A stretch of DNA of 64,000 nt, from positions 186,001-250,000 of the forward strand of contig MKTX01000001.1 of the NCBI GenBank assembly GCA_001898465.1, read 5' to 3'. The notes under the pieces were generated by a model. The model was given only the letters and a program-made list of their open reading frames with translations, ran no database searches and was not told the origin of the DNA. Both the position numbers and the translations under genes were made by a program. Shown in pieces: positions 21,051 to 46,140 of this stretch (positions within the stretch are counted from its first letter, which is position 1; every line of letters begins with the position of its first letter). Source of the DNA: Sphingobacteriales bacterium 39-19. GTDB taxonomy: Bacteria; Bacteroidota; Bacteroidia; Chitinophagales; Chitinophagaceae.

Positions 21051-21077
21051 AATTAAGCTTTTAGGAATATAAATTTA

Positions 21078-21085
21078 CGAAATTA
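21078..21085 (-). promoter_or_regulatory. Candidate -7 element of the DinB-like gene
   Basis: On the minus strand TAATTTCG is one base from TAnnTTTG. It lies 27 bases before the ATG at 21050. The surrounding 11-mer TACGAAATTAT (plus strand 21076-21086) is identical to part of the dyad in front of the PDZ gene. Confidence 0.35.
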
Positions 21086-21117
21086 TCTGCAGCTTTGCTT
21101 TTTACCATGGCAGGCAC

Positions 21118-45022: not shown

Positions 45023-45061
45023 ATTGGGCAGCCCAACATTTGTTAAGAAAAAATAAATATT

Positions 45062-45077
45062 TGCGAAATATTTCGTA
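45062..45077. promoter_or_regulatory. Operator-like dyad 1 upstream of the PDZ gene
   Basis: TGCGAAATATTTCGTA is a near-perfect 16-bp dyad with the core palindrome CGAAATATTTCG. It overlaps the presumed -33 element (TTTCG at 45071-45075). Confidence 0.5.
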
Positions 45078-45095
45078 TTTCAAATTTTCCTTTCC

Positions 45096-45103
45096 TATCT
45101 TCG
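45096..45103 (+). promoter_or_regulatory. Candidate -7 promoter element of the PDZ gene
   Basis: TATCTTCG is one base from TAnnTTTG. A TTTCG lies 20 bases upstream, and the two dyads (45062-45077, 45107-45122) flank it symmetrically. Confidence 0.45.
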
Positions 45104-45106
45104 ATG

Positions 45107-45122
45107 TACGAAATTATTAGTA
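45107..45122. promoter_or_regulatory. Operator-like dyad 2 at the presumed start of transcription
   Basis: TACGAAATTATTAGTA is a 16-bp imperfect dyad inside outer 5-bp arms TGTAC/GTACA (45105-45124). It shares the TACGAAAT half-site with dyad 1; centres are 45 bases apart. Confidence 0.5.
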
Positions 45123-45132
45123 CATAAAAATC

Positions 45133-46140
45133 ATGCACATGAAAAAGGTAATTGCATTTAGTATCGTTTCCTGGTTTTTTGCCCTGGCAGGTTATAAAGC
45201 AGTAGCACAAAACCAGCCACAGCCCGATAAAAAAGTAAGCCAGGAAATAATCATTAAAAAAAAGGGAGACAAAGATGAAAAGCTCACCCTTGAATTTAAA
45301 GAAAATCAAGTGCTGATTAATGGCAAACCCCTGGTTGAATTTAAAGACGATGAAATCAGTATCAACAATCGTACAATTATAATTAATGGGAAAAAATTAG
45401 AAAGCGATATTGATCATATGATGCAGAACTTCAATTTTAACCCTGATTTCGACATTCAAATAGATTCCTTGTATGGAAATATGAGTTCGGGTCCTTACCT
45501 GGGTGTTTCTTTTGAAAATGTAAAAGAAGGCGCTAAAATATTAAACGTAGTAAAAGGCAGCCCGGCTGAAAAAGCAGGCTTACAAAAAGATGATATCATT
45601 ACAAAATTTGGCAGCATCAAGCCGGATGATGAAGCCAATAACCTGGCTGCCCTGGTAAAAAAAATGAATGTAAAAGATGAGGTTAAAATTGAATACCTCC
45701 GGAATGGAAAAAAGAAAAAGACAAAAGCAGAAATAGAGGCAAATAATGAATTTTCATTCAGAGGCTTTACCACCGCACCTCCCCAGGCAAGGGGGCAAAT
45801 GTTACTCCCCCCTCAACCACCGGCATTTCCGCCAGATAATTTTTGGTTCAATAATACGAAACGAAAAAAAATAGGATTAAAAATTCAGGATACAGATGAT
45901 GGCAAGGGTGTGAAAGTAATAGCGGTAGAAGACAGCACCGCAGCGGCCACTGCCGGTATTCTAAAAAATGATATTCTTCTTGAAATTAATGGAGTAAAAA
46001 TTAATAATACCGATGATGCCCGGGAAGAATTACGCAGCAGCGATGATACCTTTACCTACCCGGTGAAAGTATTGAGAAATGGCACGGAAATGAATATCAC
46101 TATAAAAGTTCCCAGAAAGTTAAAAACGATTGACTTATAA
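45133..46140 (+). CDS. Exported twin-PDZ protein
   Basis: The 335-residue exported protein has a signal peptide (about 1-25). A strand-rich N-terminal region follows (KKKGDKDEKLTLEF, VLINGKPLVEFKDDEISINN, 38-80) that recalls the C-terminal extension of Bacteroidota M56/BlaR1-like proteins. PDZ 1 (about 115-195; GPYLGVSFENV, VVKGSPAEKAGLQKDDIITKFG) and PDZ 2 (about 240-330; IGLKIQDTDDGKGVKVIAVE, AATAGILKNDILLEINGVKI) are next. No protease domain is present, so it is not a DegP-type enzyme; it likely binds protein C-termini in the periplasm. The promoter is embraced by two operator-like dyads, suggesting tight control by a dimeric repressor. Confidence 0.85.
   Translation: MHMKKVIAFSIVSWFFALAGYKAVAQNQPQPDKKVSQEIIIKKKGDKDEKLTLEFKENQVLINGKPLVEFKDDEISINNRTIIINGKKLESDIDHMMQNFNFNPDFDIQIDSLYGNMSSGPYLGVSFENVKEGAKILNVVKGSPAEKAGLQKDDIITKFGSIKPDDEANNLAALVKKMNVKDEVKIEYLRNGKKKKTKAEIEANNEFSFRGFTTAPPQARGQMLLPPQPPAFPPDNFWFNNTKRKKIGLKIQDTDDGKGVKVIAVEDSTAAATAGILKNDILLEINGVKINNTDDAREELRSSDDTFTYPVKVLRNGTEMNITIKVPRKLKTIDL

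Follow-up and report, generated by a model that had tools for sequence, protein, structure and literature searches.

To our knowledge, gene pairs encoding a BlaI repressor and an M56 protease are mostly named after antibiotic resistance, and few of their targets are known outside that role. Such PF03965/M56 pairs, together with paired operators, are described for BlaI, MecI and CopY in the available portion of PMC7253601. The system considered here resembles BlaI-BlaR1 and MecI-MecR1 of staphylococci in that a PF03965 repressor is encoded beside an M56 membrane protease, and its two predicted operators per promoter follow the layout known for BlaI and MecI (PMC7253601, same portion). Unlike BlaI-BlaR1, no beta-lactam-binding domain was found on the M56 protein and, unlike BlaI/MecI, the predicted target is a PDZ protein encoded in another locus and the half-site is TACGA rather than TACA.

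PetR-PetP of Synechocystis, the plastocyanin/cytochrome c6 copper switch, likewise combines a BlaI-like factor with a BlaR1-like protease and serves a purpose other than beta-lactam resistance; its regulon is very small, comprising four proteins according to the accessible text of PMC7896320. The present system differs from it in its targets and phylum, and here the only hint of copper is a multicopper-oxidase-like gene (L208). The copper repressors CopY and CopR belong to the same superfamily; where two operators are present, these are mostly 24-39 bases apart (PMC7253601, as far as its available text goes). Unlike them, the BlaI protein studied here lacks Cys-X-Cys, and its operator core differs.

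What sets the circuit apart from the known systems is its operator code, its PDZ target and a half-site rule. Among the papers listed by literature searches of incomplete coverage, none describes such an operator in this group, judging by title and abstract opening, and PMC12565901 uses neither the word operator nor the word palindrome. Because sequences from many genera reveal a target, an operator code and a strict rule for the half-sites, the circuit is directly testable, and in bacteria that are harmless.

The PDZ promoter and the blaI locus

The window is the whole 64-kb stretch of DNA that was analysed (C1:186001-250000 of G000, a 3.32 Mb draft genome in 18 contigs). Two related dyads had been proposed, in a sequence-only reading, to bracket the promoter of a PDZ gene in this window, and both dyads as well as TATCTTCG were confirmed in place (Table 1). 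Arms of the form TGTAC...GTACA (45105-45124) enclose dyad 2. The Bacteroidetes sigma-ABfr promoter consensus is given as TAnnTTTG at -7 and TTTG near -33 in the accessible sections of PMC7366714 and PMC2483708, from which TATCTTCG and TTTCG deviate once each. The promoter flanked by the two dyads appears to be of the Bacteroidetes type, and from the consensus we infer a transcription start at about 45108-45112. Some 20 bp 5' of dyad 1 there is a TTGTTAAAG-like block, which most genus-level promoters keep and which is replaced in the Sediminibacterium group.

Table 1. Features of the PDZ promoter and of the blaI locus (positions are those of the window unless a contig is named)
Feature	Position	Strand	Remarks
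Dyad 1, TGCGAAATATTTCGTA	45062-45077		Predicted BlaI operator; right half perfect, left half imperfect (position 2)
Dyad 2, TACGAAATTATTAGTA	45107-45122		Predicted BlaI operator spanning the putative transcription start; left half perfect, right half imperfect
-33-like element TTTCG	45071-45075	+	Within dyad 1; likened to the consensus TTTG at -33 (PMC7366714, available sections)
-7-like element TATCTTCG	45096-45103	+	Between the dyads; TAnnTTTG in most homologues
TGTTAAG	45041-45047	+	Matches the TTGTTAAAG-like block conserved 5' of dyad 1 in the genus-level set (alignment)
BlaI-type repressor gene	C3:29737-30117	minus	Sole PF03965 match of the genome (C3:29755-30093), directly downstream of the C3 dyad pair
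Exported two-PDZ-domain protein	ORF 45133-46140	+	Start at 45133 or, more likely, 45139; C-terminal tail conserved

Allowing up to two mismatches, TACGAAANNTTTCGTA is matched in the 64-kb window by these two dyads only. Shuffled windows contain a mean of 0.36 matches, with 5 of 100 shuffles reaching two. Two such dyads are therefore not rare within a window, which alone is suggestive only, and the case relies on conservation and on the match before blaI.

When the 3.3 Mb genome was searched with the dyad 2 pattern, allowing one mismatch, only three places were found: the site itself, C3:30147-30162 and C17:51873-51888. The C3 place has one mismatch and lies about 30 nt upstream of blaI, with a second dyad (two mismatches) beside it at C3:30124-30139. 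This search was carried out before BlaI was sought, so that the earlier suggestion of a BlaI/MecI-type regulator encoded elsewhere was borne out independently of the answer; it is strongly supported, since the only blaI of the genome is directly preceded by a site that, with one other, matches dyad 2 most closely in the genome. Matches with up to two mismatches were fewer genome-wide than in the control (37/39 vs 53/61) and, given this lack of excess, single weak matches mean nothing. The third place found, C17:51873-51888, likewise has one mismatch and reads TACGATATAATTGGTA.

The repressor scores 85.4 bits against PF03965 (cut-off 22.6). After 5 nt, blaI is followed by the ORF of the M56 protease, the sole PF05569 match of the genome (116.9 bits, cut-off 31), in which HELAH is present. 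The blaI promoter itself carries a dyad pair, the distal dyad agreeing at 9/10 positions. Pfam matches to the M56 protein up to E 0.1 included no beta-lactam sensor domain, and the BlaR1 model covers residues 85-321 only (99.7 bits vs a cut-off of 400). BlaI aligns to the S. aureus BlaI and MecI structures from residue 1 or 2 to residue 117 or 118 of its 127, and the M56 protein aligns to BlaR1 across residues 137-311. The region of what we take to be the Asn-Phe proteolysis site of the S. aureus repressors also aligns, the residues here being Gln-Ala. The best NCBIfam match of BlaI is CopY_TcrY, at 49.8 bits far below the cut-off of 121.95; no Cys-X-Cys motif occurs in the BlaI sequence, and its single cysteine is in the N-terminal half.

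Because the dyads match sites before the sole BlaI-type gene and recur in many relatives, it is very probable that the PDZ gene is switched by BlaI and its M56 partner. Both dyads would then be operators of the genome's single BlaI/MecI-family repressor. Our high confidence applies to the core of this reading, namely operators of this BlaI and repression; what the data show directly is the sequence, its conservation, clade-specific operators and covariation of the recognition helix. A BlaI dimer on dyad 1 would cover the -33 region and another on dyad 2 the transcription start, and the PDZ gene would thereby be repressed. The M56 protein may sense an envelope signal, leading to loss of BlaI and so to derepression of both blaI-M56 and the PDZ gene. 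We infer that BlaI binds and represses, that it is lost by proteolysis, which kind of signal acts and in what order the genes are induced; the named families are the guide to cleavage by M56, to the signal and to what the PDZ protein does.

The same dyads could conceivably serve activation, BlaI acting as an activator throughout or as activator and repressor at different targets, in the manner of PetR, which is reported to repress petE and activate petJ (PMC7896320, in its accessible text). This we regard as unlikely, as the placing of dyad 1 over the -33 region and of dyad 2 over the predicted start is a repressive geometry and is kept in most of the family sample. In its main points, the proposal of paired operators for a dimeric repressor, clipping the site of the polymerase, is upheld.

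Conservation of the dyad pair

The first set comprised 39 distinct PDZ homologues, of which 38 have enough upstream sequence (L029, with 3 nt upstream, was dropped); the 39 do not include PDZ matches that were weak or partial (L034, L039-L041 and others not listed) or that covered a single PDZ domain (L107-L112). The dyads are kept upstream of orthologous PDZ genes, an outcome on which the sequence-only reading had staked its proposal: both precede 33 of the 38 homologues (32 identified by script, L104 by eye), several rows being near-identical, so that these and the following counts are not independent. Dyad 2 alone is found before L031 and L033, which are close kin, and neither dyad before L028, L096 and L098, all from genomes without an own-type BlaI. 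In the counts over 244 family genomes given below, own-type BlaI stands for the matches left after 14 weak matches, with E values of 3e-9 or weaker, were picked out by hand and set aside. In 32 promoters the spacer between the dyads measures 24-29 bp (27 in 22 of them, 29 in the window), and the TAnnTTTG within it keeps a near-constant distance from dyad 2. Among shuffled upstreams, a dyad-1 score of at least 12/14 was reached in 4/3800.

A second set was drawn from 244 family genomes, with a pair threshold of 22 of 28. The pair was present in 36/40 promoters from genomes with own-type BlaI (28/29 best-scoring and 8/11 low-scoring homologues) and in 1/9 from genomes without it, these nine being those of 16 PDZ-only genomes whose PDZ place was listed. 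Its absence from eight of the nine BlaI-less genomes represents few independent losses. In the 36 promoters the pair scores 22-26 of 28, whereas none of 980 shuffled upstreams exceeds 20. It is thus scarcely credible that the dyads are chance or by-products of the promoter consensus with no regulator behind them, even with the five shuffled windows that reach two matches.

A follow-up set, its loci picked in part because of exceptions in genus g29, contained the pair in 8/11 further loci, and all three exceptions again belong to g29. In that genus, all five PDZ genes examined (L262, L267, L270, L271 and L272) are without dyads though own-type BlaI is present, as if the g29 PDZ gene had left the BlaI regulon. 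Altogether the pair is missing from 6/80 promoters whose genomes have own-type BlaI, namely five from g29 and L266; L245, which has an odd dyad arrangement, was left out of this count and of the tree test. Within genus g106, L252 (genome without own-type BlaI) has no pair and L268 and L269 (genomes with it) have one. Dyads are also present in four genomes in which no own-type BlaI was found (L094, L022, L097 and L255). Assembly gaps may explain some of these, completeness being 77% for the genome of L022 and 98% for that of L255.

Across the 244 family genomes, the PDZ gene and own-type BlaI occur together in 154, the PDZ gene only in 16, BlaI only in 35 and neither in 39 (Fisher p 9e-13, a statistic that ignores kinship). 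The co-occurrence is phylogenetically clustered, and kinship explains much of it. The PDZ tree shows at least five changes in the presence of dyads. In seven independent pairs differing in own-type BlaI, the dyads differ the same way in two, the opposite way in none and not at all in five; with so few independent events, this tree-based test of dyads against BlaI, in which L031 and L033 (dyad 2 only) were left unscored, was not significant.

Operator code and half-site rule

Two clades of BlaI paralogues can be told apart, each with an operator and a recognition helix of its own. Genes of the own clade have TACGA-N6-TCGTA just before the start codon, with all 10 positions present at the proximal dyad in 33/37; among the rows filed under this clade 37/38 score at least 11/14, the exception being L049 (27% identity). 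The operator of the other clade is AACTAA-N4-TTAGTT, with 12/12 positions in 24/37 rows. Y42, T43, T45, L46, K47 and Q50 of the recognition helix are common to 37/37 own-clade proteins, and N, V, A, T and K occupy positions 43, 45, 46, 47 and 50 in 31-34 of 37 rows of the other. Between the clades the helix thus differs in accord with the operator, which, as far as sequences can tell, points to a code and not merely a motif.

The dyads of the window are variants of TACGA-N6-TCGTA and, like the own-clade blaI operators, do not have a TACA/TGTA core. The available portion of PMC7253601 gives TACANNTGTA as the core for BlaI, MecI and CopY; its absence from this operator counts against the BlaI reading. 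Some other dimeric regulator, encoded elsewhere, could recognise this half-site in the PDZ dyads, the likeness to the blaI operator being due to shared site ancestry or coincidence. Such a regulator would accommodate the 6/80 promoters that lack the pair despite own-type BlaI, the four dyad-bearing genomes showing none and those independent pairs, five out of seven, in which BlaI differs and the dyads do not. It is nevertheless improbable, given that 33/37 own-clade loci have this half-site immediately at blaI and that the genes of the paralogous clade carry a different one.

In all 70 PDZ promoters whose pair was recognised, exactly one half of dyad 1 and exactly one half of dyad 2 is a perfect TACGA, the other half being imperfect. 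For dyad 2, scored in 78 PDZ promoters, the right half is perfect in 51 and the left in 27, with both or neither in none, and a quick PDZ tree shows at least five switches of the perfect side. The consensus used to find the dyads leaned to the observed forms for the first 33 promoters; for the 37 of the second set it was fully symmetric, a bias toward two perfect halves.

The imperfect half of dyad 2 is TACTA in 45/70 sites, which resembles the half-site AACTAA of the other clade and might suggest that dyad 2 is a mixed site, bound by a heterodimer with one BlaI from each clade. This is very improbable, as the genome of the window has own-type BlaI only and yet carries a TACTA half, and 25/70 dyad 2 sites have other imperfect halves.

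At the blaI promoter, the proximal operator has both halves perfect in 33/37 genes and the distal one is often imperfect. Compared with this proximal operator, in which both halves are mostly perfect, the half-perfect PDZ operators would be held more weakly, and the PDZ gene would accordingly be derepressed before blaI as BlaI falls. It is possible, and we put it forward tentatively, that throughout the family a BlaI/M56 pair with an operator specificity of its own, TACGA-N6-TCGTA, controls the exported two-PDZ protein, and that selection keeps both of the operators concerned at half strength. If so, an envelope-stress circuit unrelated to beta-lactams would have a built-in order of induction, effector before sensor.

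Further candidate targets and the PDZ protein

Two genome profiles, R1 for the PDZ promoter and R2 for the blaI operator, were built mostly from the places they then found; recovery of those places is therefore by construction, and only the scarcity of other strong matches is a result. The candidates scored per genome numbered 74 (R1) and 109 (R2), of thousands at first look. With R1, E < 1e-13 was obtained in 23/59 genomes, always at the PDZ gene, and all but G032 are training rows or duplicates. The 24 best matches of R2 are all at blaI; the next one lies in G027 (E 5.5e-4), away from any known blaI. In the window's own genome the other matches are weak, the best among those listed having E 0.018 outside the PDZ promoter (R1) and 0.21 outside blaI (R2). 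Three R1 places of this genome, L211, L212 and L213, did not resemble the pair on inspection and were rejected.

An 11-mer of dyad 2 had been noted to recur at 21076-21086. The recurrence stands (two matches in the window, 0.06 expected by chance); a role as operator does not, the 16-mer at 21076, TACGAAATTATCTGCA, having one good half only, and the site is absent among the listed matches of either profile.

Among 13 weak places inspected in relatives, L208 and L215 resemble further operators, and some of the others look like chance. The former, L208:1232-1303 in G011, is a similar promoter (E 1.3e-4) before an exported protein, multicopper-oxidase-like as named from sequence, and hints at copper or oxidative stress. 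In G013, L215 has a TACGA-N6-TCGTA dyad before a protein of 266 residues, whose C-terminal LEYRKGRLFIDGREQ stretch recalls the N-terminal part of the PDZ protein. In the close relatives G005 and G011, where the PDZ genes keep dyad 2 only, the best R1 match is another promoter (E 8e-7). This promoter (L166:1501-1586 and L167:1501-1587) has a clear dyad 2 only and precedes genes for a PqqD-like protein of 80 residues and an ATP-grasp protein, a possible extra target.

For the PDZ protein itself, an MKK corresponding to 45139 is the beginning of most homologues in the alignment. In its predicted structure, two PDZ domains are modelled confidently and the remainder with low confidence (mean pLDDT 63.2). 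Its N-terminus had been thought to recall parts of M56/BlaR1-like proteins, a likeness that was not recovered: profile comparison with the cognate M56 family, made for the whole families and for the PDZ N-terminal and M56 C-terminal regions, gave no similarity. The tail PKKLKTANL, or near variants of it (46111-46137 in the window), is strongly conserved, with a final Leu or Phe in complete aligned homologues, and could be a C-terminal PDZ ligand for the protein itself or for another PDZ protein.

The 15 named records of full-length PDZ relatives are from Chitinophagaceae (including Ferruginibacter, Sediminibacterium and a record labelled Chitinophaga pinensis) and unspecified Bacteroidota, with one labelled Sphingobacteriales; six further records match a single PDZ domain only. 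The PDZ-promoter pattern is found across many genera, including Sediminibacterium strains DSM 22335 and DSM 28323.
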